Assembly: GCA_030606485.1 (NCBI GenBank)
Contig: JAUWGH010000011.1
Coordinates: forward strand, 1-64,000
Source: Promethearchaeota archaeon
GTDB lineage: Archaea > Asgardarchaeota > Lokiarchaeia > Sigyniarchaeales > SOKP01
Length of the DNA stretch: 64,000 nt
Direction of reading: 5' to 3'
Of the stretch, positions 9,843 through 64,000 are shown one piece after another; position 1 is the stretch's first letter; each line of letters begins with the position of its first letter. The position numbers and the translations under genes were made by a program. The notes under the pieces were generated by a model, which saw only the letters and a list, made by a program, of their open reading frames with translations, had not been told where the DNA came from and did no database searches.

Positions 9843-9942
9843 ACGATACAACGATTTCTTGTTCTCCTTTAAAATCAACTCCATATTAAAAAAAAATATA
9901 ATTTTTATTTATAATTTTGGATTATATCCATTGAAGATATCT

Positions 9943-11026: not shown

Positions 11027-12568
11027 TTGGTAATTATGAGCGAGAAAATGAATGTATTATTTATAATGACCGATCAGCAACGAGCTGATCATTTAAGTTG
11101 CGCTGGAAATCCTGCATTAAAAACACCAAATATTGATAGTATAGGAAAAGATGGTATTCGATTCACCAATGCTTTTTGTGCTAATCCTATGTGTATGCCA
11201 AATAGAGCAAGCATGGTTACAGGGTTATATCCAATGGTGCATGGTGTTAGAAGCAATGGAATTAATTTATCTACAGAAATTCCTACTCTAGCCAAGGTTT
11301 TGAAAAAAAGGGGGTATCATACAGCTGCTGTAGGAAAAATGCACTATCAATTTTGGACACCTCCATATAAAATGAAAACTAAATCAACAGAATGTATTGG
11401 TGATTGGTTCGCTGAGAAAGTAGGTAATAATCCTGTACGAGAAAATTTCCCTATCCCATATTATGGATTTGAGGATGTAGAAATGGTACTAGCACATGGT
11501 ACCATGTGCAGCGGACATTACTTTAATTGGTTAAAAGAAAGAAATCCCAAGTATATACCACATTTGAAAAAAAAATATCTGAAATTTCTAGATAATTTTT
11601 TTACATTATTTTGTGATCTTGATTTATCGGAAGAGTATTATAACACTACCTACGTAAAAGAGCGATCTATTGCCTTCCTTGAAAGGTATGCCCATGGAGA
11701 TTACGAGAACAAACCATTCTATTTGCATTGTTCATTTCCAGATCCACACCATCCAGTCTGTCCACCAGGAAAATATAAAGATATGTATAATCCTGATAAA
11801 ATTAATTTCCCCTCGAGTTTTGATGATATCGAGAATTTACGTAATCATCCATTTTTAGGACCACTTTTAGAGGAACCTGTTATTAGAGGGGCGATGTTGC
11901 GTGAATCAACGGAGGAAGAAGTTCGAAATTTTATGGCTTTAACTTATGGATCCTTAACTATGGTCGATGATGCGGTAGGGGAAATTTTAACCACTTTAGA
12001 AAAGTTAGGTTTGACTGATAATACAATAGTAATGTATACAAGTGATCATGGAGATTTAATGGGAGAGCATGGAATGTTGTTAAAAGGACCTTGCCCTTAT
12101 AATTGCTTATTAAACGTCCCTTTACTGTGGAAAGTACCTGGTTTGACAAAACCGTCAGTTTCAGATTCTTTGGTAAGCTCAATTGACTTCACACCGACTA
12201 TTCTCAACATTTTGAATATTAAAGAACGACATCAACCTCCAAATATGCAAGGTCTTGATATAACCTCAATTTTAGAAGATCCTAACAAAAAAGTTAGAGA
12301 TTGTTTTTTAATTGAGGAGGACGAAGAAGTCGGTCCTTACGGTCCTCTTTACACAAGAGTAAGACATTTAATTACAGATACCCATAAGCTAACAGTTTAT
12401 GCAGAATTACCCAGATTTGGGGATTTATTCGACCGTAAGAACGATCCAGACGAGATAAATAATTTATGGTATGATGAGAAGGAACTACAATGCAAAATGT
12501 TGGATAAAATACTTCATGAAAGCCTTAAAATGCAAAGTCGTTATCCTAAAAGAGTATCTGCTACATAA
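11027..12568 (+). CDS. Sulfatase family hydrolase, Cys-type active site
   Basis: MNVLFIMTDQQRADHLSCAGN, CMPNRASMVTG (C-x-P-x-R), HGDLMGEHGMLLKGP. Confidence 0.9.
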   Translation: MVIMSEKMNVLFIMTDQQRADHLSCAGNPALKTPNIDSIGKDGIRFTNAFCANPMCMPNRASMVTGLYPMVHGVRSNGINLSTEIPTLAKVLKKRGYHTAAVGKMHYQFWTPPYKMKTKSTECIGDWFAEKVGNNPVRENFPIPYYGFEDVEMVLAHGTMCSGHYFNWLKERNPKYIPHLKKKYLKFLDNFFTLFCDLDLSEEYYNTTYVKERSIAFLERYAHGDYENKPFYLHCSFPDPHHPVCPPGKYKDMYNPDKINFPSSFDDIENLRNHPFLGPLLEEPVIRGAMLRESTEEEVRNFMALTYGSLTMVDDAVGEILTTLEKLGLTDNTIVMYTSDHGDLMGEHGMLLKGPCPYNCLLNVPLLWKVPGLTKPSVSDSLVSSIDFTPTILNILNIKERHQPPNMQGLDITSILEDPNKKVRDCFLIEEDEEVGPYGPLYTRVRHLITDTHKLTVYAELPRFGDLFDRKNDPDEINNLWYDEKELQCKMLDKILHESLKMQSRYPKRVSAT

Positions 12569-12650
12569 ATTAAAATAATGTTCTTATTTTAGATTTTAGT
12601 TTTATAAAAGATGATTTTATTGAAATAAAATATTCACTTGAATTCGAATC

Positions 12651-14060
12651 ATGAAATTAAAGATATTGTTTGTAAGTGATCTACACAGTAGGTATGAGGA
12701 GATGGCAAAAATTGCATCTATTATTGAGGAGATAAAAGATGAGAACACTATAATTTTAGATATAGGTGATAATGCAGACTTTTCACGGTTAGAAACTGAA
12801 GGTACCCAAGGTAAAATAAGCACGGATATTCTTAATGAGATTGGATTTCATGCCAGAGTATTTGGAAATAATGAAGGGTTTGTAGAAATTGAGATCGGTA
12901 GAAAAATGGCTGAGAATTCCTTGTGTCCTGTTATTACTTGTAATATGTATGATATTAATGGTCAAAAGCTTGATTATCTAAAAGATTATGTAATTATCGA
13001 CATGAAAGGATTAAAAATTTTAATGATTGGGGTAACCGCACCATATAATGAATTTTATCATCTTTTTGGAATTCATATGAAAGACCCTCTAGAAGAGATA
13101 AAGCGGGTTCTTTCCAAATTAAGTAAAGAAAAATACGATCTTCTGATCCTCCTTTCACATCTTGGATTAACTCACGATAAAGAATTAGTCACTAAAATTG
13201 CAAATATTGATATAATAATCGGAGGGCATTCTCATACAGTTCTTACAGAACCAATTAGAGAAAATGGTACCATTATCTGTCAAGCTGGAGGTTATGGAGA
13301 ATATCTAGGTGAACTAGTTATAGACTACGATAAAAAAAGAAATATAATTAAAGAATTTAAAGGAAAACTAATCCCAGCAGCAAATTTTCCACCACATCCT
13401 AAAATTAGTGATATAATCCTTCGCAATTCTAAAGAGGCAGAAAAATTCTTGTCCCGACCTTTATATTCTATTATTGTTACATTAAAACATTCATTAACCG
13501 AAGAAAACGAGATTGGAAATCTTTTAGCTGATGCATTAAGAGAAATGTTCAATAGCGATATAGGAATAATAAACAGTGGTGTTTTAAATCAAGGAATTGA
13601 AAAAGGAATTATTACAAAAAGCCTACTTTTTAAGATATGCCCCTCACCATTAAACCCAACCCTTGTAGAACTAAAAGGGAGCGACCTCTTGATAACCTTA
13701 GAAAAATCTCTCCTTACTAGATATCAACTAATGGATGGAGAAGGAGCTGGATTTAGAGGAAAATATCTCGGAAACATTCAAATATCAAATAATGTTCGTG
13801 TTGCTTTTAATCCTAATAAAAAACCATTAAATAAGATTAATTATGTTAAAATTAATAATACTCTTTTAGATCCTCAACAATGGTATAGAGTAGGGACTTC
13901 TGATTATCTTCAACGTGGAACAGGTTATACGGATTTGAGCAATTGCAAACACGTAAAATATCATCCCGATTGGTTGCGTGATATACTTGAAAAATATTTG
14001 AGTAAGAAGAAATTCATAAAAATGGCATCTTTTAAAAGGTTTATCCCGCAACCAAAATAA
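12651..14060 (+). CDS. Metallophosphatase, 5'-nucleotidase / 2',3'-cyclic phosphodiesterase (UshA-like)
   Basis: ILFVSDLHSRYEE, GNNEGFVE, LLILLSHLGLTHDKEL, IIGGHSHTVL plus C-terminal nucleotidase domain. Confidence 0.85.
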   Translation: MKLKILFVSDLHSRYEEMAKIASIIEEIKDENTIILDIGDNADFSRLETEGTQGKISTDILNEIGFHARVFGNNEGFVEIEIGRKMAENSLCPVITCNMYDINGQKLDYLKDYVIIDMKGLKILMIGVTAPYNEFYHLFGIHMKDPLEEIKRVLSKLSKEKYDLLILLSHLGLTHDKELVTKIANIDIIIGGHSHTVLTEPIRENGTIICQAGGYGEYLGELVIDYDKKRNIIKEFKGKLIPAANFPPHPKISDIILRNSKEAEKFLSRPLYSIIVTLKHSLTEENEIGNLLADALREMFNSDIGIINSGVLNQGIEKGIITKSLLFKICPSPLNPTLVELKGSDLLITLEKSLLTRYQLMDGEGAGFRGKYLGNIQISNNVRVAFNPNKKPLNKINYVKINNTLLDPQQWYRVGTSDYLQRGTGYTDLSNCKHVKYHPDWLRDILEKYLSKKKFIKMASFKRFIPQPK

Positions 14061-14272
14061 ATATCTTAATTTTTTATTAATTCGCAATGCTTTAGTTAAA
14101 TTCTTTATTCACTAACTAACAAGTTCTATAGAATTTAATTAATCGGTAAAGAATTTAAGTTAAGTTATCTATTTTGATCAAATTTAAATAAATGAGATAT
14201 TTTATCAATGCTAAAGGAAAAAAGATTATTAATTTTTTAGCTAAAAATATTTGCATTCAATTCTATTAAGGG

Positions 14273-14644
14273 ATGAAAAAGGTGGATTATTGTCCTAATT
14301 GCGGCGAAAAAATAGAAGGGACAGAAATATATTGCCCTTTTTGTGGATCTTTATTTCAAGAAACTGTTGAAGTGGAGAAGAAAGAAAAAGAAAGAGAAAT
14401 TGCAGATTTAAAACAAAAAATTGCCCAGTTAGAAAAACAAGTAGGAGCTTCGAAAAAAAATGAAATAGAAATACTTAGAAGTGAAGTCTCGGATCTGCAA
14501 CAACAATTAATATTGCAAAAAACTCAACAAGTAGAAATAAAACCTGTAGAAAAGAAGAAAAAAACAGATGAAGGATGTTCTAATTGCTTATGTTGCATAA
14601 TTCTTATAATTATTGTGGCAACAATATTTTATTTTTTATCGTAA
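14273..14644 (+). CDS. Zinc-ribbon / coiled-coil protein with C-terminal TM anchor
   Basis: YCPNCGEKIEGTEIYCPFCGS, Lys/Glu coiled coil, CLCCIILIIIVATIFYFLS tail. Confidence 0.7.
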   Translation: MKKVDYCPNCGEKIEGTEIYCPFCGSLFQETVEVEKKEKEREIADLKQKIAQLEKQVGASKKNEIEILRSEVSDLQQQLILQKTQQVEIKPVEKKKKTDEGCSNCLCCIILIIIVATIFYFLS

Positions 14645-14656
14645 ATAAGTAATTTA

Positions 14657-15532
14657 TCATTTATATTTTAATAGAAAATCCACTAGTTCTAGATTTTTCC
14701 TAAACAAATCATAAATCTGCGTGCTTTGTTTCCCTTTCATCAATTTAAGCAACTCCTTGATGTTATAATCTGTTTCGCCAATTTCTTTTTGAAGCTCAGG
14801 TAATAGTTCGAATAGTAATTGTTGATTTAAAACTTTACCATTATAGCGACGTCCAGCCAAATTACTCGCAAGAAATAAATATATTGGTGAAATTGCTTCT
14901 GGTGGATCTGCTTTAAGGCTTGTTTGTCCTAAATCTTTCATATCTTCTATCAACTTAGTTTGGATTGCTCCTGGCAAAATAACACTCACTTGAATATTGT
15001 TGTGACCCACTTCGGCTTGCAGACATTTAGCCATAGTAGTAACAGCTGCTTTAGAGGCAGAATAAGCAACTTTATAACCACTGAAATAAACATTTCCTTG
15101 AACCGAGGAGGTCATAATGATTTTTCCCCCACCATGTTCGACCATATTAGGAAGAATTTGCTTAGTCATTATATAGGATGCCATGAAGTTTAGATTGAAT
15201 AATTTCTGAGCTTTTTCAAGAGGAAAATCGATCATTGTGGAATAATGGGTCATACCAGCATTATTTACGAGAATATCACATCTATTGAAATTTTCAAAAT
15301 ATTTTTTGGCGCACTCCTTCACATTCTCAAGTATAGTTAAGTCAGTTGGGATGGAGAAACATTTTACACCATAACTTTCAATTTCTTTATGAGTCTGATC
15401 TAATTCATTCTTTTCAAGAGCCGTAATCGCCACATGAGCACCATTTTTTGCAAATTCAAGCGCAACAGCCCTTCCAATACCACGCCCTCCACCAGTCACT
15501 AAAGCGTATTTTCCTTCCAGAAGTTTCATCAA
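14657..15532 (-). CDS. SDR family oxidoreductase
   Basis: ALVTGGGRGIGRAVALEFAKNG, NNAG, YSASKAAV. Confidence 0.9.
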   Translation of the reverse strand: MMKLLEGKYALVTGGGRGIGRAVALEFAKNGAHVAITALEKNELDQTHKEIESYGVKCFSIPTDLTILENVKECAKKYFENFNRCDILVNNAGMTHYSTMIDFPLEKAQKLFNLNFMASYIMTKQILPNMVEHGGGKIIMTSSVQGNVYFSGYKVAYSASKAAVTTMAKCLQAEVGHNNIQVSVILPGAIQTKLIEDMKDLGQTSLKADPPEAISPIYLFLASNLAGRRYNGKVLNQQLLFELLPELQKEIGETDYNIKELLKLMKGKQSTQIYDLFRKNLELVDFLLKYK

Positions 15533-15663
15533 ATCATTCTCTCCAGTTATTTTTAATTAGTTGATAATTAAAATCAATTTTATCAAAATAAATTATTCTT
15601 TTTTAAAAAAATTGCTGTAAGATAAAAATTTCAGAAGAAATGGCCTTATTATTTTCTATAAGA

Positions 15664-16599
15664 TTATACACCAAATAGTAAAATTAAGATCCATAGAAGA
15701 GAAAAACTGATAATAATACTTAAATTCACTAGCATACTAATTATCTTTTGGTCATACTCAAATTCTACAGAAAACGGAATAACTGCAAGACCTATTGGTA
15801 AAACTAATGAAACAGTGATAACTACTCTATATAGATGAGGAAATTGGTCGATGGGTAAGAAAAAGAATAATGAGAGACCAATAGAAAGTCCAATTAAATA
15901 GCGCATTATGAGAACTTTTAAAATTACGTTCCATTCTGCTTTTTCAAATTTGAAACTCAAATAAATGCCTAATAAGAGCAATGTTAAAGCCGTGTTTGCT
16001 CTTGCGAAAATATCCAATATATCTGTAATAAAAATTGGCATGATGAAACCCGAAAAATTTATTGTAAGGGCTATAACATAACTCATTAAAGGTGCTGACT
16101 TTAGTAAGCGTTTGGCAACATGTTTAAAATCCACATTTTTTTCTTCATTATTGAGTGCTGGTGAAAAAATGCAACCAACGATATAACAGAATAAAAATAC
16201 TGTTAAAGCATTACCCGCATCAACTAGAACTATATATTGTAATCCCTCTTCGCCCCAAATCCCTTCTACTAATGGAAATGCTAAATGAACAACATTAAAT
16301 CCAATCACAGTCATTAATATTAGCCCTTTTATATTTCTCGGATAATTTCTAAATAAAATAAGGGCAATACCTAGCATTCCAAGTCCAAAAATTATGTGAA
16401 TTAACGGTATTAAACTCAATGATAAATTAAATTCAATGGTGCTTGTTACCTTTAAGATAATTGCCGGTAACGTGACATTAAATATGATTTTTGCAATAAT
16501 CTTGCCATTTTCTTCTTTAATTATATTTGCTTTTTTAAGAATAAAACCAATTAAAATTATCGTTAATGATAAAAGGAAAGTATAATTTACATCTGCCAT
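15664..16599 (-). CDS. AEC (auxin efflux carrier) family transporter
   Basis: About 10 TM; LGFIL-KKANII...KIIFNVTLPAIILK N-terminal signature. Confidence 0.75.
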   Translation of the reverse strand: MADVNYTFLLSLTIILIGFILKKANIIKEENGKIIAKIIFNVTLPAIILKVTSTIEFNLSLSLIPLIHIIFGLGMLGIALILFRNYPRNIKGLILMTVIGFNVVHLAFPLVEGIWGEEGLQYIVLVDAGNALTVFLFCYIVGCIFSPALNNEEKNVDFKHVAKRLLKSAPLMSYVIALTINFSGFIMPIFITDILDIFARANTALTLLLLGIYLSFKFEKAEWNVILKVLIMRYLIGLSIGLSLFFFLPIDQFPHLYRVVITVSLVLPIGLAVIPFSVEFEYDQKIISMLVNLSIIISFSLLWILILLFGV

Positions 16600-16824
16600 T
16601 TTTTATTATTCTACATATTTTTTCGACTCAATAGAACTATTTAGAATAATTAATTGGTCTATTAATTCATTTTCTTTTTATTTAATCCGCAAAACTTTTT
16701 ATTTTATAGACATATTTGGAAGAAAATAAAGAAGAAAGATGTAATAATAGAAAGGCTTTATCCGATAAAAAATTTTAAATAATGTCATCAGTAAATTAAA
16801 TTATTAATATAAGAGATAATTGAA

Positions 16825-17742
16825 ATGAAACCAAATCTTCTTTCAGAGAAAAAAGTAATTATAACCGTTGCGATAACCGGAGGGATACATGGAAAGTGGG
16901 CGACCTCTTCGCTACCGATAACTCCAGAGGAGCAAGCTCAAGATGCTTTGGAATGTTATAATGCAGGTGCATCAATACTCCATCTTCACGTACGTGATCA
17001 TGATGGTCAAAATACAGCCGATATAAATGTATATAATGAAGCAGTAAAATTAATTGGTGAGAAGTGCCCAATTATTAGGCAGATCGGTAATGGAATTGGA
17101 GCACGTCTAGAAACAACTACAACTATAACAAGATATGGTAGAAAAGCGGTAAAATCCAAGATTGTGCAACCATCACTGGAAGCAAGACTGAACCTACTTA
17201 CAATTGAGCCTATACCTGAAATGTTCACTATTAACGCTGGATCATTTGAATTCAGAACTCCTTATGGTGGGGGGTTATTCGATAATCCAATGGATTTTAA
17301 TAGAAAATTTGTTAAAGGATGTAAAAAATTGGGTTGTGGTATTGAGATTGAAGTATATGATTTAAGCCATATTGCTAATATTATGGAACTTGTCGATAAA
17401 GGCATATTAATACCACCTCTGCACTTTAGCCTTGTTTTGGGAATTAAAGGGGGCGCTCCTGCAACGGTAAAGAATCTATTAAGCATGATTGAGCTACTTC
17501 CCGAGGGATCAACGTGGCAAGTTGTTACAGTTGGTAAATTCCATTTACGAACCACTCTTATCGCTATGTCAATGGGGGGTAATGTTAGAACTGGGCTCGA
17601 AGATACTATTTATTACCAGAAGGGGGTACCAGTAAAAAGTAATGCACAACTAGTGGAACGCATGGTTAGATTAGCCCGAGAAATAGGAAGAGAACCAGCC
17701 ACAGTTGATGAGGCAAAAAAAATGTTGGGATTAAAAAAATAG
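16825..17742 (+). CDS. BKACE / DUF849 beta-keto acid cleavage enzyme (3-keto-5-aminohexanoate cleavage family)
   Basis: ITVAITGGIHG, GASILHLHVRDHDGQNT, GGNVRTGLEDTIYY. Confidence 0.9.
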   Translation: MKPNLLSEKKVIITVAITGGIHGKWATSSLPITPEEQAQDALECYNAGASILHLHVRDHDGQNTADINVYNEAVKLIGEKCPIIRQIGNGIGARLETTTTITRYGRKAVKSKIVQPSLEARLNLLTIEPIPEMFTINAGSFEFRTPYGGGLFDNPMDFNRKFVKGCKKLGCGIEIEVYDLSHIANIMELVDKGILIPPLHFSLVLGIKGGAPATVKNLLSMIELLPEGSTWQVVTVGKFHLRTTLIAMSMGGNVRTGLEDTIYYQKGVPVKSNAQLVERMVRLAREIGREPATVDEAKKMLGLKK

Positions 17743-17878
17743 TTAATATTAATCTAAGAATTTTTATAGAGCGATTTTCTATTATTTTTATTAAATTCAA
17801 GATTCCTGCTTTAAAAAATGATTATAACTAATTAATTGATAAATAGAAAAAAAAAAATTAAAAATTAAAAAAGAAAAT

Positions 17879-19279
17879 TTATTTTGGCATTAATTCTGGA
17901 TATTGTTTCAATTCTTCTCTTATTCTTTCAAGTTTTTCTCCATGTAAGGTATAAAATTTCATGGTAACAATTCCGATAGTAAGTGCAATTGCAGGAAATA
18001 CAAATATTAGTACTTTTAAGCCAATGATGGTTAATGCAGGATCGCTTGTTACCGGCGTATAAGTTTTATCCCAACCAGTCCCAGAGAAAACTACCCAAAT
18101 AGTTAACATAGTTATAATTATTCCCAATCGATGGATAAAAGCATTAACACCATAATAACTTGCAGATCTCTTTACACCAAATTTAAGTGCATCTTCTTCT
18201 ATTACATCTGCATGTAATATATCTACGTAAAATAACGCTCCAGATAATGGAATTCCGTTTAAAGCTGTAATAATAACTCCTAAAATGAGAAATTCTTCAC
18301 CTGAAACTAAAACAAATGGAAATAATGCGCAAATCCAAAGAGCCAATGTTACCATGAACGCATTTCGCATACCTATTTTTGCTCCAAGTTTTCTATGTAA
18401 AGGCATAATTAAAGCAGCAATTACGAATGAAAGCATTAACGATATTCCGATTATTATGGAATTACCTGAAAGTCCAAAAACATGTACAAAATACAAAGTT
18501 AAAATGGTCGGTAAAATATTAAAAACATACCATACACATGTATTTGCTATTACGAATTTTATAAATTCCTTATTTGTAAATGTAATTTTCAATGATTTAA
18601 GAAATGATGGCCTTTTTTCAAATTGTTCTTGAACTTCTTCTTTTTCCTTAATACCCCGCAAGAAAAAAGGTAAAGACAGTACTGCAGTTAAAATTGCTAA
18701 AACTACTCCAGCAGTAATATAATTTAATTTAATACCTTCAATTTCAGCAGGAGTCTCAGGAACTAATTTTGGAACAAGTATTGTAGGTAGAAGCGAAGCA
18801 ATTATTAAAGCAACAACTGTTAATCCCTTTACGAATAAATTAACAGCGCCTCTTTTTTTTTCCGTAGTAAACATCTCGGGAAAAAGTGCATTTACATTTA
18901 CATCAAAAAGTGTATAAACAAATTCAAATAGAAAGATGATGAATAAAAAGTAGAAAGCTTCCATTCCTGTAGGGACAGTGAACAATAATATCATCATTAA
19001 GCAGAGAGGACCTATTGAGAGAGTTAAATAAAATTTCCGTTTGCCCCATTTACCTTTTTGTTTTGTTCTATCTGATAATGCACCTAAAACAGGATCATTT
19101 ACTGCGTTCCATATTCCCCATAAAATATAAATAAGCGTCATCACGGTTATATCGAGTCCAATTACACAAAAATAAAACGTAAAAATTAAGAACTGAAAAG
19201 CTTGATAAGTTAATTGGTCAGGTATAGCACTTAAACCGAAACAAAATTTGTCTTTAAGACCTAAAGTATCTTCACTCAT
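17879..19279 (-). CDS. MFS transporter, GPH (glycoside-pentoside-hexuronide):cation symporter-like
   Basis: LKDKFCFGLSAIPDQ..., WNAVNDPVLGALSDRTKQKGKWGKRKFYL. Confidence 0.82.
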   Translation of the reverse strand: MSEDTLGLKDKFCFGLSAIPDQLTYQAFQFLIFTFYFCVIGLDITVMTLIYILWGIWNAVNDPVLGALSDRTKQKGKWGKRKFYLTLSIGPLCLMMILLFTVPTGMEAFYFLFIIFLFEFVYTLFDVNVNALFPEMFTTEKKRGAVNLFVKGLTVVALIIASLLPTILVPKLVPETPAEIEGIKLNYITAGVVLAILTAVLSLPFFLRGIKEKEEVQEQFEKRPSFLKSLKITFTNKEFIKFVIANTCVWYVFNILPTILTLYFVHVFGLSGNSIIIGISLMLSFVIAALIMPLHRKLGAKIGMRNAFMVTLALWICALFPFVLVSGEEFLILGVIITALNGIPLSGALFYVDILHADVIEEDALKFGVKRSASYYGVNAFIHRLGIIITMLTIWVVFSGTGWDKTYTPVTSDPALTIIGLKVLIFVFPAIALTIGIVTMKFYTLHGEKLERIREELKQYPELMPK

Positions 19280-47088: not shown

Positions 47089-47994
47089 TCACTTCTCTTT
47101 TATTTCTAATAACTCCCACACTTTTACCATTTTATCATATGATCCGCTGACTATGTAGTTTCCATCTGGAGAAACCGCAACCGAAAATACATCAGCTTTA
47201 TGCCCCCTAAGAGTGCGAATGAGCCTTCCCGTTCCTAATTCCCACACTTTTACCGTTATGTCCACTGGCCCTGCTCCGCTGACTATGTAGTTTCCATCGG
47301 GAGAAACCGCAACCGATAACACCTCATCTTCATGCCCTTCAAGAGTGCGAACGAGCATTCCCGTCCCTAACTCCCACACTTTTACCATTTTGTCCCATGA
47401 TCCGCTGACTATGTAGTTTCCATCGGGAGAGACCGCAACCGAACTCACATCAGCTTTATGCCCTTTAAGAGTGCGAATGAGTCTTCCCGTCCCTAATTCC
47501 CACACTTTTATCGTTTTATCAACTGATCCACTGACTATGTAGTTTCCATCGGGAGAGACCGCAACCGAATCCACAGGACTTTCATCCTCTTTAAGAGTGC
47601 GAACGAGCCTTCCCGTCCCTAATTCCCACACTTTTACCGTTGCGTCCAATGATCCGCTGACCATGTAATTTCCATCAGGAGAGACCGCAACCGAATTCGC
47701 CCAACTTTCATGCCCTTCAAGAGTGCGAACGAGCCTTCCCGTTCTTAATTCCCATACTTTTATCTTTTTGTCAGATGATCCGCTGACTATGTAGATTCCA
47801 TCGGGAGAGACCGCAACCGAATACACACCACCTTCATGCCCTTTAAGAGTGCGAACGAGCATTCCCGTCCCTAATCTCCACACCTTTATCGTTTTATCAA
47901 CTGATCCACTGACTATGTAGTTTCCATCGGGAGAGACCACAACCGACAACACAGTACCTTCATGCCCTTTAAGGGTGCGAATAGACAGTTCCAT
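47089..47994 (-). CDS. WD40 beta-propeller protein, seven near-identical repeats
   Basis: Seven units RTLKGHEGxVxSVAVSPDGNYIVSGSxDKTIKVWELGTGRLV. Confidence 0.95.
   Translation of the reverse strand: MELSIRTLKGHEGTVLSVVVSPDGNYIVSGSVDKTIKVWRLGTGMLVRTLKGHEGGVYSVAVSPDGIYIVSGSSDKKIKVWELRTGRLVRTLEGHESWANSVAVSPDGNYMVSGSLDATVKVWELGTGRLVRTLKEDESPVDSVAVSPDGNYIVSGSVDKTIKVWELGTGRLIRTLKGHKADVSSVAVSPDGNYIVSGSWDKMVKVWELGTGMLVRTLEGHEDEVLSVAVSPDGNYIVSGAGPVDITVKVWELGTGRLIRTLRGHKADVFSVAVSPDGNYIVSGSYDKMVKVWELLEIKEK
47100..47980 (-). repeat. Tandem 126-bp (42-codon) DNA repeat encoding the WD40 blades
   Basis: Recurring ...cccacacttttaccgtt...gatccgctgactatgtagtttccatcgggagagaccgcaaccga... Confidence 0.9.
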
Positions 47995-48418: not shown

Positions 48419-48826
48419 CTAAAAAAATTCAGATAACCTAAGTTCTGTTGCATCTTCACCATCCAAATTAGGTCCTGGAAAGAGAAAAGGGGAAAGTCCA
48501 GCTCCCAATCCAGCTCCTAAACGAGGATATCTGATTGTTGATAGAACTAATATTCGATTTTTGCCCGCAGCCATTATGAGGATTAAGCCATTATCTCCCT
48601 CAATCATAATTCTCTTTAGATTTCCACGAACAACCTCTAAAACCCCACGTTCTCCTAATGAAAATATCGCAGCGGTCATAGCGGCAATTTTTGTATCATC
48701 GATCGCCTCGGGAAAAACACTTACAATAAGGGACCCCTCTATTGAAACAATTGCTCCAGCCTCAACGTCAGGATTGGACTTAACCAATCTTTTTAATTCT
48801 CGCTTAAGTGATTTTAAATCATCCAT
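48419..48826 (-). CDS. Roadblock/LC7 domain protein, copy 1
   Basis: LKRLVKSNPDVEAGAIVSIEGSLIVSVFPEAIDDTKIAAMTAAIFSLGERGVLEVVRGNLKRIMIEGDNGLILIMAAGKNRILVL. Confidence 0.9.
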   Translation of the reverse strand: MDDLKSLKRELKRLVKSNPDVEAGAIVSIEGSLIVSVFPEAIDDTKIAAMTAAIFSLGERGVLEVVRGNLKRIMIEGDNGLILIMAAGKNRILVLSTIRYPRLGAGLGAGLSPFLFPGPNLDGEDATELRLSEFF

Positions 48827-48950
48827 TAATTTCTCATTGGATCATTATTTCTCAAATTTATATAAAAATAAATTTAGAAGATAAGTTATTTAATAATTGT
48901 GATAGGAACTAAATAAAATTTATTAATGTTTTATTCAATCTTATTTCCGC
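48490..48950 (-). repeat. Long direct repeat (Roadblock gene plus upstream flank), copy 1
   Basis: Nearly identical to 58474-58930 including upstream non-coding aataaatttagaagataagttatttaataattgtgat. Confidence 0.9.
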
Positions 48951-49040
48951 AATTTTTCGGATCTTTTTATCTTTCTAGAGACTTTAATATCTTTTAGCAA
49001 AATTCTCAATATCATATTTCATTCAGTACTATCTTTTTCT

Positions 49041-51015: not shown

Positions 51016-51927
51016 ATGACAAAAACTGAAAAATTATTATCTCAGGCAAAAAAATTTGAAATAGAACATCAATTTGAAAAAGCTGCTACACTTTATATAA
51101 AAGCGGCCCAAATATCGTTAAATAAGGGTAATTTGAAAACAGCTACAATTGGGTTTAGTAAGGGGGCAGATTGCTTATATGGTGCTAGAAAAATCAGCAA
51201 TGGACTAAAATATTCTCAACAGGCTTTAGAAATTATCAATAAATTAAATGATTTGAGTGGAAAAGCCGCTATATTGAATAATATTGGAAGAATATTACGT
51301 GAGAGTGATGATCTTGATGAAGCTCTTATGTACTTTAAACGTGCCTTGGAAATTGACGAACAATTAGAAGACTTTATAGGAATAGGTATCAGATTAACTA
51401 ATATCGCAGAAATTCAAGGCAAAAAGGGAGAATTCAGCGAAGCTCTCAAGAACTATCGAAGCGCTATAGTAGTTGTAGAATATACTGGTGATTTGAAGGT
51501 TAACGCCGCTATATTAAATAATATCGGACTATTATTACACGAGCAAGGCGAATTTGGCGATGCACTCGAATCTTATCTTAAAGCTTTGGAAATTGATGAC
51601 TTACTAGGGGATTTAAGGACAAAAGCTATACATTTAACTAACATTGGAGAGCTTTTAGGTGATATGGGCAGGATCGATGAAGGTCTTGAGCACTGGCAAC
51701 AAGCTTTAAAAATAATGGAAGATTTGGACGAAATTATAGATAAAGTTGCTCTATTAAGCCAATTTGGTGAAAAACTAATTAATAAAGATGATTCCGCAAA
51801 AGGTTTTGAATACTTATTAAAGGCTAGAGAAATTGCCAATAGTGTGAGAAATCCAAATCAAAAAGCATTTCTTTTAGAAAAAATCAACACAATTTTACGA
51901 GATAAAGGATTTAATTTTCAAACTTAA
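51016..51927 (+). CDS. TPR repeat protein
   Basis: 40-aa repeats LKVNAAILNNIGLLLHEQGEFGDALESYLKALEIDDLLGD. Confidence 0.9.
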   Translation: MTKTEKLLSQAKKFEIEHQFEKAATLYIKAAQISLNKGNLKTATIGFSKGADCLYGARKISNGLKYSQQALEIINKLNDLSGKAAILNNIGRILRESDDLDEALMYFKRALEIDEQLEDFIGIGIRLTNIAEIQGKKGEFSEALKNYRSAIVVVEYTGDLKVNAAILNNIGLLLHEQGEFGDALESYLKALEIDDLLGDLRTKAIHLTNIGELLGDMGRIDEGLEHWQQALKIMEDLDEIIDKVALLSQFGEKLINKDDSAKGFEYLLKAREIANSVRNPNQKAFLLEKINTILRDKGFNFQT

Positions 51928-54197
51928 TGAAAATGTCAGATTTAAATAAACTTAGGCAATTAGCTCAAAAATTTGAGGGAGAATTCCAATATAATGAAGC
52001 TGCTAAACATTATTTAAAAGCGGCTGAATTAGATTTAAAAAAAGGCAATAAGAATATCGCTGGAGTGGAATTTAATAGAGCTGCAAAATGTTTATATAAC
52101 ATTGGGAAAATTAATGAAGCTTTAAATTATTTTGAACGTGCTCTGGAAATTGCCGATCAAGTCGGTGATTTGGCAGGTAAAATTGTTCTATTAAATAATA
52201 TTGGAGAAATTTTTCATAATAAACGTGAACTTGATAAGGCATTAAAATATTTTCAACCCGCCTTAGTAATTGCTGAACAGATAGGTATGCTAGAAGGGAA
52301 AACAGCTTTATTAACTAATATCGGAAGCATCTTATATGAAAGTGGAAAACTCGATGTAGCTCTCGATAACTTTCAACATGCCTTAAAAAATGCAGAACAG
52401 TTAGGGGATTTAAGAGCAAAAGCCACTCTTTTAATCCACCTTGGATTGATTTTTCGCGATAAGGGCGAGATTGATGAAGCTCTTCGGTCATACCAACGGG
52501 CTCTGAAAATTGCCGACCATCTAAGAGATTTGAGAATAAGTTCTAGTATATTAATCAACGTTGGAAATATATTACATGATAAGGGGAAACTCGACGAATC
52601 TATCGAGAATTATCAACATGCATTGGAAATTTCTGAACAATTAGGCGATTTAAGGGGAAAAATAACTCCATTAACCAATATTGGGGAAATTTTTCGAGAT
52701 AAAGGAAAGTTGGATGATGCTTTTAAATATTACCAACAAGCTTTGAAAATTGCCGAACAATTAGGCGATTTAGGTGGAAAAGCTGCTCTATTAAATAACA
52801 TTGGCATGGTATTTTACAATAGGGGAGAGCTAAAGGAGGCTTTAAAAAATTATCATCGTGCTTTGGAAATTGATGAACAGTCGGGATACTTGAAAGGAAA
52901 GGCTATCCGATTAAATAATATCGGTTTGGTTTTATATGATCAAGGCGAACTTGATAAAGCCTTGAAATACTATCAACATGCCTTGGAAATTGATAAAAAA
53001 TTAGGAAACTTGAAAGGAAAAGCCGATCGATTAACCAACATTGGAGAGATACTAGTAAATAAGGGTGAATTCAAGAAAGCATTTGAGTGTTACCAGGATG
53101 CTTTGGAAATTGCTAAAAAATTAGGTGATTTGAAGGGTAAAGCTAATCAATTAAACAATATTGGCTTGATATATCTTGATAAAGGCAAGCTCGATAATGC
53201 ACTTGAGAATTTTCAACATGCATTGGAAATTTATGAGCAAATAGGCATCTTGGGAGGCAAAGCAGCTCTATTAAACAATATAGGAACCGTTTTATTTGAT
53301 AAAAATGAAATCAGTGAGGCTCTCGATTACTTACAGCGTTCATTGAATTTATTTCAGAAGAGAATTGCAGGAAAAGAATTAGACTTCAAAACTGGAATAT
53401 TATCTTGTCCAAATGCTATTTGTTCGGCAGAACTAGAAATTAAAATAATGGGTATCCAGGGAGCGATAATTGAAACATGTCCCAGATGTAATATCCAATT
53501 TTCAGTCTGGATTGATTCTATAAACTCAAAATATCAAATTGGGATACTTTCTGATGAAATTTTTGAAACAAGAAGTATTACATCGGGAACAATAGAATTC
53601 CAAGATCAAGTAGGAAGGAAAACGGAAACAACTATTTCGGAATGGTTAAAGCACGGAGCACTAACGACAGAAAACATCGCAGTTTGCCATAAAATAAGAA
53701 AAGATTTCTTAAACTCTTGTACAAATTATTACCAAGCGGCAAGTTTATACCGTGGTCTTGGATTTTTGGAGAAATCGGAGAATATATTGAAAATCCTTGA
53801 AGATTTGTTAATTCATATTGATGAGAAAAATAGGGAAATTTTCGTCCATGAGATTGCCCAGCTTCGGAAAAGAACTTCTGAAAGCTTACGCACAAGAGAT
53901 TTCTCTTACATCTTCATTTCGTGCCCAAGTTGTCAGAAAGAACACCGCGTTCAAGCCAGTCCAACTACAATTGCAACTAAAATTTGTACTCATTGCCGCG
54001 GAAAATTTTCAATCTACTACGATGATAACACGGAAGAATTTTACACCAATATCTTAGAAAACCCAGTGGTTAAGACAAGTATTCGAGATAAGGGGTTGAA
54101 ACGAGATGTTGTAAAATTTTGCGCGAGATGTGGATTAAAAGTGGGTGAAATTGCACAATATTGTGCGAGATGCGGTTTAAAAATGTTGAGAAAATAG
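51927..54197 (+). CDS. TPR array (about 11 repeats) with C-terminal zinc ribbons
   Basis: LRGKITPLTNIGEIFRDKGKLDDAFKYYQQALKIAEQLGD x11; CPNAICSAEL...CPRC, CPSCQKEH...CTHCRGKF, CARCGLKVGEIAQYCARCGLK; ATG overlaps preceding TAA. Confidence 0.92.
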   Translation: MKMSDLNKLRQLAQKFEGEFQYNEAAKHYLKAAELDLKKGNKNIAGVEFNRAAKCLYNIGKINEALNYFERALEIADQVGDLAGKIVLLNNIGEIFHNKRELDKALKYFQPALVIAEQIGMLEGKTALLTNIGSILYESGKLDVALDNFQHALKNAEQLGDLRAKATLLIHLGLIFRDKGEIDEALRSYQRALKIADHLRDLRISSSILINVGNILHDKGKLDESIENYQHALEISEQLGDLRGKITPLTNIGEIFRDKGKLDDAFKYYQQALKIAEQLGDLGGKAALLNNIGMVFYNRGELKEALKNYHRALEIDEQSGYLKGKAIRLNNIGLVLYDQGELDKALKYYQHALEIDKKLGNLKGKADRLTNIGEILVNKGEFKKAFECYQDALEIAKKLGDLKGKANQLNNIGLIYLDKGKLDNALENFQHALEIYEQIGILGGKAALLNNIGTVLFDKNEISEALDYLQRSLNLFQKRIAGKELDFKTGILSCPNAICSAELEIKIMGIQGAIIETCPRCNIQFSVWIDSINSKYQIGILSDEIFETRSITSGTIEFQDQVGRKTETTISEWLKHGALTTENIAVCHKIRKDFLNSCTNYYQAASLYRGLGFLEKSENILKILEDLLIHIDEKNREIFVHEIAQLRKRTSESLRTRDFSYIFISCPSCQKEHRVQASPTTIATKICTHCRGKFSIYYDDNTEEFYTNILENPVVKTSIRDKGLKRDVVKFCARCGLKVGEIAQYCARCGLKMLRK

Positions 54198-56722: not shown

Positions 56723-56812
56723 TTAGTTAAAAATTTTCTGTTCCTTTGTTAGTTTGCTTCCGCAATGCTTACAAAATTTTCGACTCTTTATCAATTCTAC
56801 TGTTTCTTTCAT
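56723..56812 (-). pseudogene. Zinc-ribbon relic
   Basis: Reverse strand: MKETVELIKSRKFCKHCGSKLTKEQKIFN*, matches NETKVLIKSRKFYKNCGSKLKNRQKVCKICG of 58906-59100. Confidence 0.5.
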
Positions 56813-56826
56813 CACTATTGTCGTTT

Positions 56827-57735
56827 TTACCGTTTGATTTTTTTCTCTTTTTCTTTAATTTCAATGTTTTTTTTCTTAATTAAGTCTTTTAAATAATCAA
56901 TCTGACTAGTTTTTCTCATATTTTCTTCCTTTAAATTAGTAATTAATAGTCTTTGTTTTTTCAACTTCTCTTGTAAATCTCTAACAAGATTATGTACAGG
57001 TATTTCCTCCTCTTTAATCTCAATTATATGACCATTTGATTTAGATCCTTTCTTTCTTTCCTGTTCTAATTGTTGCTGAAGCTGAATTTTTTCTTTTCTA
57101 AGTAAACCCATGTTAATCTTTAATTCCCTATATTTTTTTTCTGTTTCTTCTAATTTCAACTGTAATTTTTTAGCATATGCACGTTTTTTTCCGTACTTAT
57201 CAATTAGATCATTTAATTTATTTAATTCTTCTCTATATGAGGATATTGATATTTCACTAATCTCTAAATCCGTTTTGAGGTGTTCAATTTCTCTATTTTT
57301 AAAATCAAATTCCTTTTTTATTTGATTTACCTCAACTCTCAGTTGATCTATGCTTTCCTCAATTTGTTCTTTTAATTCAATTCCTTCTTTTGGTTTTATT
57401 TCTTGTTTTATTTCTATTTTATCAAATTTTTTTGCAAGTTTAATACTTTTACTTCCTTCTATAAACTCAAGAAAATCACGGGGCTCTATCCCTTCGTCTA
57501 CAGGCACAACTGAATACTCCAAACCTACTTGCCCTCTAATATCTTGGCTTTTTTGAGCACCAATAAATTTCTTTCTAACTGATGATTCTGCCCCCTTCCA
57601 TAACCAAATTGTTTTATCAGGGGGATCACTGATGATAATATACACTTCAAAAGTCTTCAGGATATCCTTTATATCTTTATCGATTTGTATTTCTTCTATT
57701 TCTCCAGTTTCTAATACTTTAAATATCCGGATCAT
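56827..57735 (-). CDS. Gelsolin-like domain fused to long coiled coil
   Basis: VYIIISDPPDKTIWLWKGAESSVRKKFIGAQKSQDIRGQVGLEYSVVPVDEGIEPRDFLEFIEGS, then about 190 aa coiled coil. Confidence 0.7.
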   Translation of the reverse strand: MIRIFKVLETGEIEEIQIDKDIKDILKTFEVYIIISDPPDKTIWLWKGAESSVRKKFIGAQKSQDIRGQVGLEYSVVPVDEGIEPRDFLEFIEGSKSIKLAKKFDKIEIKQEIKPKEGIELKEQIEESIDQLRVEVNQIKKEFDFKNREIEHLKTDLEISEISISSYREELNKLNDLIDKYGKKRAYAKKLQLKLEETEKKYRELKINMGLLRKEKIQLQQQLEQERKKGSKSNGHIIEIKEEEIPVHNLVRDLQEKLKKQRLLITNLKEENMRKTSQIDYLKDLIKKKNIEIKEKEKKIKR

Positions 57736-57865
57736 ATTTTATGCCGTTGAGATTATCATAATTTTTTTGAATGTTAATAAGATAAATTTGTTTTTTATCC
57801 ATCAATGTAAAAATGCTAATATAATTTTTAAAATCTTTCCTAATTTTCGTATATCAATAACTTCC

Positions 57866-58387
57866 TTATCTTTTAGATTTCTCATCCAATGCCATTTTTG
57901 CAATCCTAGAGAAAATTTCAGATGCTCCTTCTTTTGAAACAACCGAAGTTTCAATATAGTTCAGTTTAAAATCTTCAATTAATTTCTCAACTTCCTTGTG
58001 AGATACAGTAAAAAAATTGGAATATCTTTTATTTCCCACAAGAAGTATAGGAATACCTACAGCATTCTTCCTAACTAAGTTAATCCAATCAGGCAAATTC
58101 TCGAAAGATCTCCGATCGGCAAAATCGAAAAATAATATCAACCCTTCAGCTCCTTTAACATACTGCGGGAATAAAAATTTGTACTTTTTTTCACTTCTAA
58201 AATTCCACAATTGTAGTTTTACTTTTATATTTGCGATCTCAACATTTTTACTGAAAAAATTAACTCCAATAGTAAGGCTCAGATCCTCCTCAAATAATTT
58301 AGGCTTATTAATATGACGTGATAAAAGCGCTTTCTTAATCCAGCCCTCGCCTAACATTAATATCTTAAATGTTTCATCAGTCTTCAT
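57866..58387 (-). CDS. Ras/Rab-like small GTPase fold with degenerate nucleotide-binding motifs
   Basis: FKILMLGEGWIKKALLSRHI (P-loop lacks GK[ST]), LSLTIGVNFFSKNVEI, KLQLWNFRSEKKYKFLFPQYVKGAEGLILFFDFADRRSFENLPDWINLVRKN, ILLVGNKRYSNF, ETSVVSKEG. Confidence 0.8.
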   Translation of the reverse strand: MKTDETFKILMLGEGWIKKALLSRHINKPKLFEEDLSLTIGVNFFSKNVEIANIKVKLQLWNFRSEKKYKFLFPQYVKGAEGLILFFDFADRRSFENLPDWINLVRKNAVGIPILLVGNKRYSNFFTVSHKEVEKLIEDFKLNYIETSVVSKEGASEIFSRIAKMALDEKSKR

Positions 58388-58457
58388 TTAAGATTTTTCC
58401 TCCACTCTAGTTAATTTAAATATCAAGTCTGAAATTAATCTCTTTTTTCTTCAATAT

Positions 58458-58802
58458 TCAGGTATCAATTAAGAAATCTCCTAATCCAGCTCCTAAACGA
58501 GGATATCTGGTTGTTGATAGAACTAATATTCGATTTTTGCCCGCGGCTATTATGAGGATTAAACCATTATCTCCCTCAATCATAATTCTCTTTAGATTTC
58601 CACGAGCAACCTCTAAAACCCCACGTTCTCCTAATGAAAATATCGCAGCGGTCATAGCGGCAATTATTGTATCATCGATCACCTCGGGAAAAACACTTAC
58701 AATAAGGGACCCCTCTATTGAAACAATTGCTCCAGCCTCAACGTCAGGATTGGACTTAACCAATCTTTTTAGATCTCGCTTAAGTGATTTTAAATCAACC
58801 AT
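58458..58802 (-). CDS. Roadblock/LC7 domain protein, copy 2
   Basis: Nearly identical to 48419-48826 except shortened C-terminus PRLGAGLGDFLIDT. Confidence 0.9.
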   Translation of the reverse strand: MVDLKSLKRDLKRLVKSNPDVEAGAIVSIEGSLIVSVFPEVIDDTIIAAMTAAIFSLGERGVLEVARGNLKRIMIEGDNGLILIIAAGKNRILVLSTTRYPRLGAGLGDFLIDT

Positions 58803-58930
58803 TAATTTTTCATTGGATCATTATTTCTCAAATTTACTAAAAATAAATTTAGAAGATAAGTTATTTAATAATTGTGATAAGAATTAACTAAAATTTATTA
58901 ACCTTTTATTCAACCTTATTCCCGCAAATT
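58474..58930 (-). repeat. Long direct repeat, copy 2
   Basis: See copy 1 at 48490-48950. Confidence 0.9.
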
Positions 58931-59100
58931 TTACACACTTTTTGTCTATTTTTGAGTTTGCTACCGCAATTCTTATAAAATTTCCTGCTTTTTATTAACA
59001 CTTTTGTCTCATTATCAATTACTTTTATATTTCTATAGCCTTTTATTTTTTCTATTTCAAAGCCATCTAACGTTTTTATCAGTACATATACCTCGATCAC
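58906..59100 (-). CDS. Small zinc-ribbon protein
   Basis: MIEVYVLIKTLDGFEIEKIKGYRNIKVIDNETKVLIKSRKFYKNCGSKLKNRQKVCKICGNKVE. Confidence 0.55.
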   Translation of the reverse strand: MIEVYVLIKTLDGFEIEKIKGYRNIKVIDNETKVLIKSRKFYKNCGSKLKNRQKVCKICGNKVE

Positions 59101-59410: not shown

Positions 59411-59968
59411 ATGATTACGATAGAAAGTTTTCTGGATTTAAAGAATATTAAAATTCTAATAGATGTTTGCAATATATGTTATTGCCAAAAAACTGATGAT
59501 GGGAAACCTATTCTTGCCAACTTAATGTCAGTTTTACATCATTTGATTAAAGAATTAGAAATCCCGAGGCATAATATTATTTGTATTTCGGATCCTGGAG
59601 TTGTTAGGTATATGGATGATTCGAAAAAGTTCCAAAAAATGATAGATTCTGGAGAGGTCATAAAATCGCCGAAAACGGCAGATGAGTTCATTTTAGGGTT
59701 TGCACTTAGTTGCGACTTCTGTCTAATTATATCTAACGATAAATATAGAGACTATATTAAACAATTACCGAGTGAAGAATGGCTTCAAGATAGGAGTGTG
59801 AATTTTATGATAATTAATGGTGTAACGGTTTTAAGTCCTAATATCGAATTTGAGAAATTAAGCGGTAGAGTTGGAAAAACTTTTAGTGAAAAAATTAGTG
59901 AAAATATTGAAGAATTTATTGACATAACTAAATTAGAAAAAATTACGTTAAGTGAAAGAGATGTATAA
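59411..59968 (+). CDS. NYN/PIN-like (Zc3h12a-type) RNase candidate
   Basis: NIKILIDVCNICYCQ, KTADEFILGFALSCDFCLIISNDKYRDYIKQ acidic constellation. Confidence 0.65.
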   Translation: MITIESFLDLKNIKILIDVCNICYCQKTDDGKPILANLMSVLHHLIKELEIPRHNIICISDPGVVRYMDDSKKFQKMIDSGEVIKSPKTADEFILGFALSCDFCLIISNDKYRDYIKQLPSEEWLQDRSVNFMIINGVTVLSPNIEFEKLSGRVGKTFSEKISENIEEFIDITKLEKITLSERDV

Positions 59969-60046: not shown

Positions 60047-60838
60047 TTGGTAAATTTTATGAGTTGGGAGGAAAGAGAGATTTTATTAGTTGCAAAAACC
60101 TATCCTGTAAGAAGTAGATCTCATGGAAATACCGTATGTACTGCAGGGATTTTAGAAGATACAAATGAATGGGTAAGAATTTATCCAATCAGATGGATAA
60201 AATATGCTAAAAATAATTTAAAGAAATTTGTGCGCTTTAAAGCTCAAATTAAGAAAAATACTTCAGAATATCTACAAAGAAAAGATTCCTATAAAATCAG
60301 AGAACCTACAATCAGAATAACTGATGATAGTTTAACTAAAACTCAAAATAAAGGAGTCTGGCAAGAAAGAAAAAAGATATTATTAAAAACTCTCTCCAAT
60401 TCAATTGAAACTCTTAATGAAAAATTTAAGGAGGATAAAACATCATTAGGAATGATAAAACCAATAGCAAATTCAATAGAATTTTTGATTCTTAAACCAG
60501 TTGATGAAATTGAAATTGATGTTGAAAAATCAACTCAATATACCATTTTTGGAGAGAAATTAATAAAAGTTGATAAAATAGAAAATGTATTTAAATATAA
60601 ATTTAAATGTATTAATGTTAAATGTTCCACTCATAAAATGATATGTGAAGATTGGGAATTACTACAAGCTTTTAGAAAATTTAGAAAGATATACGATTCT
60701 GAAGAACTCGAAAAACAATTAAGAAATCAATTTTATGAAAAAATGATTAAATATAGAGATTTATATTTTATTGTAGGTACTCATTGGCAATTTCCTAAAT
60801 TTTTAATAATTGGACTTTTTTATCCCCCAAAAAGATAA
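60047..60838 (+). CDS. Uncharacterised protein linked with DUF488
   Basis: REILLVAKTYPVRSRSHGNTVCTAGILEDTNEWVRIYPIRW; 13 bp upstream of ParB-DUF488 ATG. Confidence 0.6.
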   Translation: MVNFMSWEEREILLVAKTYPVRSRSHGNTVCTAGILEDTNEWVRIYPIRWIKYAKNNLKKFVRFKAQIKKNTSEYLQRKDSYKIREPTIRITDDSLTKTQNKGVWQERKKILLKTLSNSIETLNEKFKEDKTSLGMIKPIANSIEFLILKPVDEIEIDVEKSTQYTIFGEKLIKVDKIENVFKYKFKCINVKCSTHKMICEDWELLQAFRKFRKIYDSEELEKQLRNQFYEKMIKYRDLYFIVGTHWQFPKFLIIGLFYPPKR

Positions 60839-60851
60839 GAGATTAAATAAA

Positions 60852-61916
60852 ATGAAAATAAAAATTGAAAAAATAATAGTTGGAAAATATAATGTAAGAG
60901 AAAAATTTGAACAAGAATATTTAGAAGAAATAAAAGAAAGCCTAAAAATTGATGGGCAATGGAATCCTATAATTATAAGACCTATAGGAAATGGGAAATA
61001 TGAATTGATTTCAGGACATTATCGTTTACAAGCGGCCATAGAATTAGGTTGGAAAGAAATCGAGGCTACTGTAAAAGATATATCAGAAATTAATGCAGAT
61101 GTATTGTCTTTAAAAACAAATTTATTAAGATTGAATATGTCTCCAAGAGAACAAGGTAAAGTTATACATAATTTAATAACAAAATATGGGATTAGTCAAA
61201 ATGAATTAGCGGAAAAAATAGGAATGAGTCAGAGCAAAATTAGTCAATTATTAACAATTGTATTGAAATTACATAAATCTGTCGTTGATGCTTTAAATTT
61301 AAAAACCATAAATTATGGAATTGCATCTGTTATTGGAAGTCTTAGTTTAGAACAGCAACCTATTTTTTTAGAAATCATTTTGAATAGTAAAATCTCATCT
61401 CCAGCATTAGCAACAAAAATAAAGAATAAATTTTTAAATAACACCTTATATACGATTGGATATCAAGGACGAAATTCAGCTAATTTTATTGAAATTTTAG
61501 AAAAAAATGATATTAAACTTGTCGTTGATATTAGAAGTTCTGCAAAATCAGAAAAAAAACCAGAATTTAATGAAGAAATCCTGAGTCGAGAATTGGAGCG
61601 AAATGATATGAAATATAAACACTATCCAGAATTAGGTGTTCCATATATACTTCAAGAACCATATAAAGATGGAAAATTTTCATATGAGTGTTTAAAACAA
61701 TGGTACAATTGGCATATCAAAGAAAATGTTGAATTGGAAGAAATAATAAAATTTTTAAAAGATTCGGGACGGTCGGTAATATTATGTATGGAAAGATATG
61801 CAAAACCAACGAAAGAGCAAAAATATGCTTGCCACAGAAATATTCTTGCAGATTTAATTTTAAAATTTAAGGTTTCAGATCCCTTGCTTGAATTTAATAA
61901 AAGGATAGATTTATAA
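60852..61916 (+). CDS. ParB/Spo0J-like nuclease/HTH domain fused to DUF488
   Basis: KIIVGKYNVREKFEQEYLEEIKESLKIDGQWNPIIIRP...LISGHYRLQAAIELG, HTH NELAEKIGMSQSKISQLL; DUF488 YTIGYQGRNSANFIEIL...VILCMERYA...CHRNILADLI; ATG 60852 preferred over 60810. Confidence 0.85.
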   Translation: MKIKIEKIIVGKYNVREKFEQEYLEEIKESLKIDGQWNPIIIRPIGNGKYELISGHYRLQAAIELGWKEIEATVKDISEINADVLSLKTNLLRLNMSPREQGKVIHNLITKYGISQNELAEKIGMSQSKISQLLTIVLKLHKSVVDALNLKTINYGIASVIGSLSLEQQPIFLEIILNSKISSPALATKIKNKFLNNTLYTIGYQGRNSANFIEILEKNDIKLVVDIRSSAKSEKKPEFNEEILSRELERNDMKYKHYPELGVPYILQEPYKDGKFSYECLKQWYNWHIKENVELEEIIKFLKDSGRSVILCMERYAKPTKEQKYACHRNILADLILKFKVSDPLLEFNKRIDL

Positions 61917-63229: not shown

Positions 63230-64000
63230 TCATTTTGAAATTATATTCAGTATTTCATGACATAGGTTTCTAAATTCCATTGTAGAATCAGAGCGGGGTT
63301 TATCAACACAAACGGGTAAATATTTACCAGAAGCCTTTTTGATATCAACTTTATTAGTAATTATACTTCTAAATACTATAGAATTTTCATCAACCATGTT
63401 TTCTTGTTTAAAAATTTCTAATAATCGCCGAATCCTTTGTAATCCATCTTTATGTACATTTATGCGTGTATCCAATAAATTTATCAATATTCCAGCTAAT
63501 TTAACAGATGCATTTTTCTCTTCTCTTTTAATCTCAATCGTTTTGTTTAATGAATTAACTAAGAGTGGAATTCCACTAATAGATAGATAATCAGGAATTG
63601 TTGGAATTATAAAATAATCTGATGCATATAATGAATTATGGGTAGTTGTATAGATATTTGGAGGACAATCAATAAGTATAAAATCATAATAATCTTTTAT
63701 TTGTTCCAGAAATTTACTAAGAATAGCAAACCTTGATCTTACATAATTAACGATTTTTTGTTCTAATTGCATTAGGTGAGAAGTTGCGGGAAGTAAATCA
63801 AGTTGAGTTAATGGTCTGATTTCTTTTCCTTGAATTGTTCGTCTTACAACTGATTTAATTATTGCAGTTCCAAAATTAAATCTTTTCTTATTTTCATTAT
63901 CTTCCATTGCATCTAAAAAAAGTTGATAAATGGTATCGCGATATATATCATTTTCATCTAGTTCATATCCAAATTTTTGTTGATATCTCTTTGGACCCAT
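63230..64000 (-). CDS. parA: ParA/Soj family ATPase (5' truncated by window edge)
   Basis: DYYDFILIDCPPNIYTTTHNSLYASDYFIIPTIPDYLSISGIPLLVNSL, Walker A' lies upstream of window. Confidence 0.85.
   Translation of the reverse strand: MGPKRYQQKFGYELDENDIYRDTIYQLFLDAMEDNENKKRFNFGTAIIKSVVRRTIQGKEIRPLTQLDLLPATSHLMQLEQKIVNYVRSRFAILSKFLEQIKDYYDFILIDCPPNIYTTTHNSLYASDYFIIPTIPDYLSISGIPLLVNSLNKTIEIKREEKNASVKLAGILINLLDTRINVHKDGLQRIRRLLEIFKQENMVDENSIVFRSIITNKVDIKKASGKYLPVCVDKPRSDSTMEFRNLCHEILNIISK

Follow-up and report, generated by a model that had tools for sequence, protein, structure and literature searches.

A pseudoGTPase gene and a gelsolin-like coiled-coil gene form a genus-restricted pair, beside a recently duplicated Roadblock gene, in an Asgard archaeon

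The regulation of actin in Asgard archaea is relevant to how the eukaryotic cytoskeleton arose, and the protein classes with which this study is concerned, 1DGelX, ProGel, Roadblock and pseudoGTPase, are already known. The 1DGelX class, which was named in PMC9433394, and the Asgard-specific gelsolin cluster cls.008013 (PMC9433394; PMC6393860) have a single gelsolin-like domain and, after it, a region that is not gelsolin, while the Asgard 2DGel proteins (7whg, 7whf, 7c2g; PMC9433394) have two domains, a WH2-like motif and calcium sites. For MglA-MglB and for the Asgard small GTPase and Roadblock proteins, a possible partnership of Roadblock with Ras-like proteins is described, and genome layout has so far been of little help for matching small GTPases to their regulators (PMC10933270). 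The class i pseudoGTPases (CENP-M, p190RhoGAP pG1/pG2 and fungal dynein LIC; PMC5593906) have a Ras fold without the G motifs. None of the literature that we searched describes gelsolin and Roadblock genes as a pair in Asgard archaea, and such an absence does not prove the pair to be new. Where distant Asgard lineages keep a gelsolin-like gene next to one particular Roadblock gene, the latter is a concrete candidate partner. Here we describe a locus of a Promethearchaeota archaeon that lies in a window of 64,000 nucleotides, which is the whole stretch of DNA that was analysed.

Layout of the locus and origin of its Roadblock gene

Three consecutive genes of the minus strand occupy positions 56827-58802, and in the direction of transcription the ORF list gives them in the order Roadblock, pseudoGTPase and gelsolin-like coiled-coil protein (gelsolin-CC), with gaps of 70 and 130 nt between them (Table 1). 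An earlier note on this DNA had read the three as a Roadblock/LC7 protein, a Rab/Ras-fold protein and a gelsolin-like domain with a long coiled coil, followed by a zinc-ribbon relic. The coordinates and reading frames of the three genes proved correct, Pfam recognised the Roadblock domain as well as the Ras domain, the latter above the cut-off, and the relic is there as a short ORF; no conserved element of a gelsolin, GTPase and Roadblock unit corresponds to this relic.

Table 1. Positions of the features of the locus and of the source of the duplicated block
Feature	Coordinates	Strand	Basis
Roadblock/LC7 gene, recent duplicate	58458..58802	minus	Pfam Robl_LC7 E 8e-13
Ras-fold pseudoGTPase, G1/G3/G4/G5 lost	57866..58387	minus	Pfam Ras E 2.5e-27, motif survey, G010 relative
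Gelsolin-like domain and coiled coil, 302 aa	56827..57735	minus	ORF, Pfam, phmmer
Gelsolin-like domain, residues 1-94	57454..57735	minus	AlphaFold, Foldseek 7c2f, profile matches to PDB gelsolins
Coiled-coil tail	56827..57400	minus	Periodicity; 66% identity over part of the tail to a 396-aa coiled-coil protein encoded separately in this genome
Zinc-ribbon relic, 29 aa, one CxxC only	56723..56812	minus	Read from ORF translation
Zinc-ribbon ORF, 64 aa, upstream of Roadblock; 3' end inside duplicated block	58906..59100	minus	
Duplicated block, copy beside pseudoGTPase	58478..58932	minus	DNA self-comparison
Source position of duplicated block; syntenic in G010 and G012	48502..48957	minus	
Source Roadblock gene, 135 aa	48419..48826	minus	Robl_LC7 7e-13

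Elsewhere in the window there are an NYN-type RNase (59411-59968), a ParB fused to DUF488 (60810-61916) and a ParA-like AAA_31 protein (63230-64000); the ParB and ParA genes, near the end of the 65,413-base contig, are plasmid- or element-like partition genes. A protein with WD40-type repeats, recognised by eye, is encoded at 47089-47994 by 126-nt repeats that are up to 87% identical, and at 51016-54197 lie two adjoining genes with 120-nt repeats that by eye are TPR-like, the second of which ends in zinc-ribbon motifs.

When the DNA was compared with itself, a 455-nt block that ends inside the Roadblock gene was found to be 95% identical to a stretch about 10 kb away. Alignment to the sister species G010 placed the junction of this block at 58478/58479; from 58479 on the DNA is older resident DNA as in G010, from which the last residues of the Roadblock protein, DFLIDT, are derived. 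The source position at 48 kb is syntenic in two sister species, G010 and G012, and the Roadblock gene is absent at the matching place in G010. The amino acid changes in the lineage of this Roadblock protein were indistinguishable from neutral in six pairwise comparisons, each with few substitutions, in contrast to the Roadblock subfamily that is paired with 1DGelX, where 3 changes were observed and 20.8 were expected. The Roadblock protein of the window lies outside the subfamily that is paired with the two-domain gelsolin, to which it is 25% identical, and its C-terminal region is replaced. Because of the duplicated block, its junction, the absence from G010, the syntenic source and the neutral-looking change we regard this gene as a newcomer; as an inherited member of the cluster it is ruled out by the synteny and by the junction inside the gene. 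It is probably carried along as a passenger; at most it would be a partner that was recruited recently.

These data bear on whether the trio is one co-functional operon, in which the Roadblock protein would be a platform for the Ras-like protein and the latter would control the gelsolin protein. The common strand and the small distances between the genes agree with it, as do the gelsolin-Roadblock and gelsolin-GTPase neighbourhoods that recur in other Asgard families, but with a Roadblock gene that was recently copied from 10 kb away, changes in a neutral-looking manner, is missing at this place in G010 and belongs to a subfamily other than the 1DGelX-paired one, we consider an operon of this kind unlikely. 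The genes of the locus could also have separate promoters. One inherited unit of the three genes is not supported either, since G010, the one sister species in which the degenerate GTPase was found, keeps the GTPase and gelsolin genes without Roadblock and so does not conserve the three-gene linkage. The trio of the window is a young offshoot.

The pseudoGTPase and its pairing with the gelsolin-like gene

The Ras-fold protein is degenerate, as had been claimed, and four of its G motifs are broken: G1 reads GEGWIKKA in place of GxxxxGK[ST], G3 reads WNFRSE in place of WDxxGxE, G4 reads NKRY in place of NKxD and G5 reads TSVVS in place of SAK. Of the other Ras-family proteins in this genome the 30 best were examined; G1 was visible and intact in 29, and the row of the 30th ended short of G1. 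Among 79 genomes of the order, the sole close relative was that of G010, which is 55% identical in amino acid sequence and is likewise broken in its motifs; the threshold of this search was strict (1e-35) and so more distant pseudoGTPases would escape it. Between the window and G010 proteins dN was 0.324 and dS 0.631, a dN/dS of about 0.5. Under neutral simulation the chance that no stop codon would appear was 0.0006, and the 77 amino acid changes observed were fewer than the mean of 96 expected neutrally, with none of 20,000 simulations giving a number as low. We take this to mean, from the two sequences compared, with which the strength of the constraint is uncertain, that the reading frame of the pseudoGTPase is maintained. 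A maintained Ras-fold pseudoGTPase beside an archaeal gelsolin-like protein would extend a class of pseudoenzymes that is best known from eukaryotes. A viral origin was rejected, as neither the pseudoGTPase nor the two-domain gelsolin family gave a confirmed relative when viral contigs were scanned. In G010 (L052; G010 C208:1-5942) a PCNA-like gene and two fragments, which by eye resemble a broken transposase, lie beside the pseudoGTPase gene.

In the window genome and in G010 the GTPase gene is followed by the gelsolin gene, and G010 is the only other genome in which the pair was found, which makes it restricted to one genus and two species. The gelsolin domains of the two are 95% identical. 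The contig of G010 ends inside the coiled coil and therefore the complete fusion is seen in one genome only. The DNA identity to G010 is about 70% over the GTPase gene and about 95% from its 3' end onward, with a sharp change near 57880; the drop in identity runs from 57880 upstream to 58479. Likewise, dS between the two genomes was 0.63 in the GTPase region and 0.10 in the gelsolin region whereas two baseline orthologue pairs gave 0.25-0.32, and this contrast makes a recombination boundary near 57880 likely. Going by these sequences, the pseudoGTPase and gelsolin genes may have had separate histories and have been joined by recombination at this point.

The locus may also be viewed as part of a region under rearrangement whose DNA is decaying or has been reshuffled, and in which neither the pseudoGTPase nor gelsolin-CC would have an important function. 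The zinc-ribbon relics that flank it, the truncation of the duplicate, the domain pieces that occur separately elsewhere in the genome, the small number of relatives and the partition-type genes near the end of the contig all fit with this. It is improbable, however, considering that the pseudoGTPase frame is open against the low neutral chance given above and that the amino acid changes in the gelsolin domain are below the neutral expectation (5 compared to 8.8, P 0.013), with the conserved residues of the family retained.

The gelsolin-like domain, the coiled coil and their Asgard relatives

Pfam Gelsolin matched the N-terminal region with an E of 0.016, which is under the cut-off, and Pfam alone is thus insufficient. 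Searches of the PDB by sequence (phmmer) and by profile matched 7whg (Loki 2DGel) at 1.5e-9 and 8e-15, respectively, and also matched ProGel, villin and horse gelsolin (2e-8). The AlphaFold model has gelsolin topology, with block-mean pLDDT of at least 90 over residues 1-90, and its top Foldseek match was the Thorarchaeota ProGel 7c2f (E 1.6e-8, TM 0.88 by target length). Profile, model and structural match thus uphold the predicted gelsolin fold, which we regard as supported. The long coiled coil was upheld as well, as residues 113-302 have a strong hydrophobic periodicity of 3.5 residues with a power of 10.4, compared to no more than about 1 at any other period tried.

The Asp, the Glu and the later Asp of 'CSVDEK...LDQ' in domain D1 of Loki2DGel align to Arg54, Lys55 and Arg67 in the window protein, and Arg54 and Arg67 are invariant among 24 relatives. 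The positions of Lys55 and Arg67 are those that we take, by assignment from human gelsolin G1, to hold the Type II Glu and the Type I Asp calcium ligands. Both positions tested are basic, in place of the ligand acids of a calcium-regulated gelsolin, and therefore calcium control of the 2DGel kind is unlikely. The chain also has one gelsolin domain, with coiled coil as the remainder, and not the two of the 2DGel type; a single gelsolin domain with an unrelated extension, as in the window protein, is what characterises 1DGelX. When the coiled coil was used as query, G010, G011 and G012, which are of the same genus, gave one match each with 66-69% identity in frames of 391-401 aa, G013 gave one weaker match of 48%, and no second copy was present in any of these four genomes. 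By sequence, the matches in the first three agree with what would be expected of orthologues of the coiled-coil protein that is encoded separately on contig C2, and a coiled-coil orthologue of the fusion in the sister genomes was rejected. On C2 (L012 and L054, G000 C2) this separate protein adjoins a permease that by eye is FtsX-like.

A tree puts the window and G010 domains together with paralogues of 114 aa from the genus (support 91/98, not starred) and close to the two-domain proteins. This two-domain family, in which a gelsolin-like N-domain is followed by a second conserved domain, has matches, partial ones included, in 205 of 228 Asgard genomes with an E of 1e-12 or better, and is probably the published '1DGelX' class. 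The window protein matches only positions 3-113 of the 282 of its profile and the conserved second domain is missing. In profile-profile comparison this second domain matched neither Roadblock nor a second gelsolin domain and was rejected as either. For a two-domain relative the model was poor, at a mean pLDDT of 59.2, and every PDB match listed for it was a gelsolin-fold structure or a fusion.

In many Asgard lineages the two-domain gelsolin gene is followed by a gene of one Roadblock subfamily. Among the matches listed, the two lie within 1.5 kb of each other in 97 of 116 genomes and in 7 of 10 families, and in 94 of those 97 genomes the Roadblock gene is downstream on the same strand; the 116 are the genomes for which both best matches were listed, weak matches are under-represented, and the Roadblock profile was built from the linked copies themselves. 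The genomes are mostly metagenome assemblies, and labels of families such as f15 are numbers given by the tool and not names. In family f15 the gelsolin gene is followed by a Rab-like GTPase and then by a second small GTPase at all four loci examined (L155-L158, with an overlapping ORF call in L157). The second one, which by eye we take to be MglA-like, is given by Pfam as Arf (8.9e-6). In several families the neighbourhood survey found neither Roadblock nor GTPases beside the gelsolin gene. In the family of the window, 19 of the 23 loci with enough sequence have a downstream gene for an actin-related protein within the cluster; the 23 are 21 surveyed loci and those of G010 and G012, the last two being without it. 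The window genome itself encodes actin and three further actin-family proteins. A same-strand cluster at 7430-18790 of locus L053 (G000 C7:30000-49000) consists of genes for an NAD(P)H-hydrate repair enzyme, a two-domain gelsolin, Roadblock, a 721-aa VWA protein, an MraZ/MazE-like protein, a 230-aa protein, an actin-related protein and a weak CHAT-domain protein, and for most of these genes relatives are found repeatedly around the gelsolin-Roadblock pair within the family.

The conserved gelsolin-Roadblock neighbourhood points to an old link of actin control with GTPase-platform proteins, and at the level of the family a link of gelsolin with Roadblock and GTPases is plausible. Of the co-function that the earlier note had drawn from gene order, this link is supported independently by the conserved Asgard neighbourhoods but the window trio as a unit is not supported; the gelsolin-Roadblock pair is widespread among the relatives, and linkage of all three genes was not kept in G010. 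We rate the conserved pair of the relatives higher than the trio of the window, which is modest. A gelsolin domain that does not act on actin, and has come to bind Roadblock proteins, Ras-fold proteins or membranes instead, is very unlikely, for although invariant basic residues stand at the calcium-ligand positions in the long helix and the relatives are paired with a Roadblock gene, the top structural match is a ProGel crystallised on actin and, in the window's family, the cluster of the relatives includes an actin-related protein gene.

Proposed explanation and comparison with known systems

Our preferred explanation is that at the core of the locus lies a unit of two genes restricted to the genus, a paralogous offshoot of a widespread Asgard type that is usually encoded beside Roadblock; with its proposed functions included, we hold this to be evenly poised between right and wrong. 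The gelsolin head would bind actin or an actin-related protein without calcium, by analogy to the single-domain ProGel fold, the coiled coil would dimerise gelsolin-CC, and the pseudoGTPase might be an adaptor without a nucleotide switch that ties gelsolin-CC to Roadblock-type platforms or to other partners. A broader idea, which we put forward tentatively and think somewhat doubtful, is that of an old Asgard module in which a calcium-independent gelsolin-like protein and a dedicated Roadblock, joined in some lineages by small GTPases or by an actin-related protein, would tie actin control to GTPase platforms, and of which the window would be an offshoot where the switch GTPase was replaced by a pseudoGTPase.

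Compared to MglA-MglB and the Asgard small GTPase and Roadblock proteins, the window has the same two kinds of possible partners, but its Ras-like protein is degenerate and its Roadblock is a recent arrival. The class i pseudoGTPases are eukaryotic and of lineages unrelated to the window protein, which resembles them in its Ras fold without the G motifs. With 2DGel the gelsolin-like protein has the fold in common, but it has a single domain and the ligands are replaced. With ProGel (7c2f) it shares the single gelsolin-like domain and, at the helix positions that align, the lack of acidic calcium ligands, but the identity is 27%, the solved chain is without a coiled coil and the paralogue setting is different. 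Probably the nearest by sequence are 1DGelX and cls.008013, from which the window protein differs in that a coiled coil stands where they have the conserved second domain.
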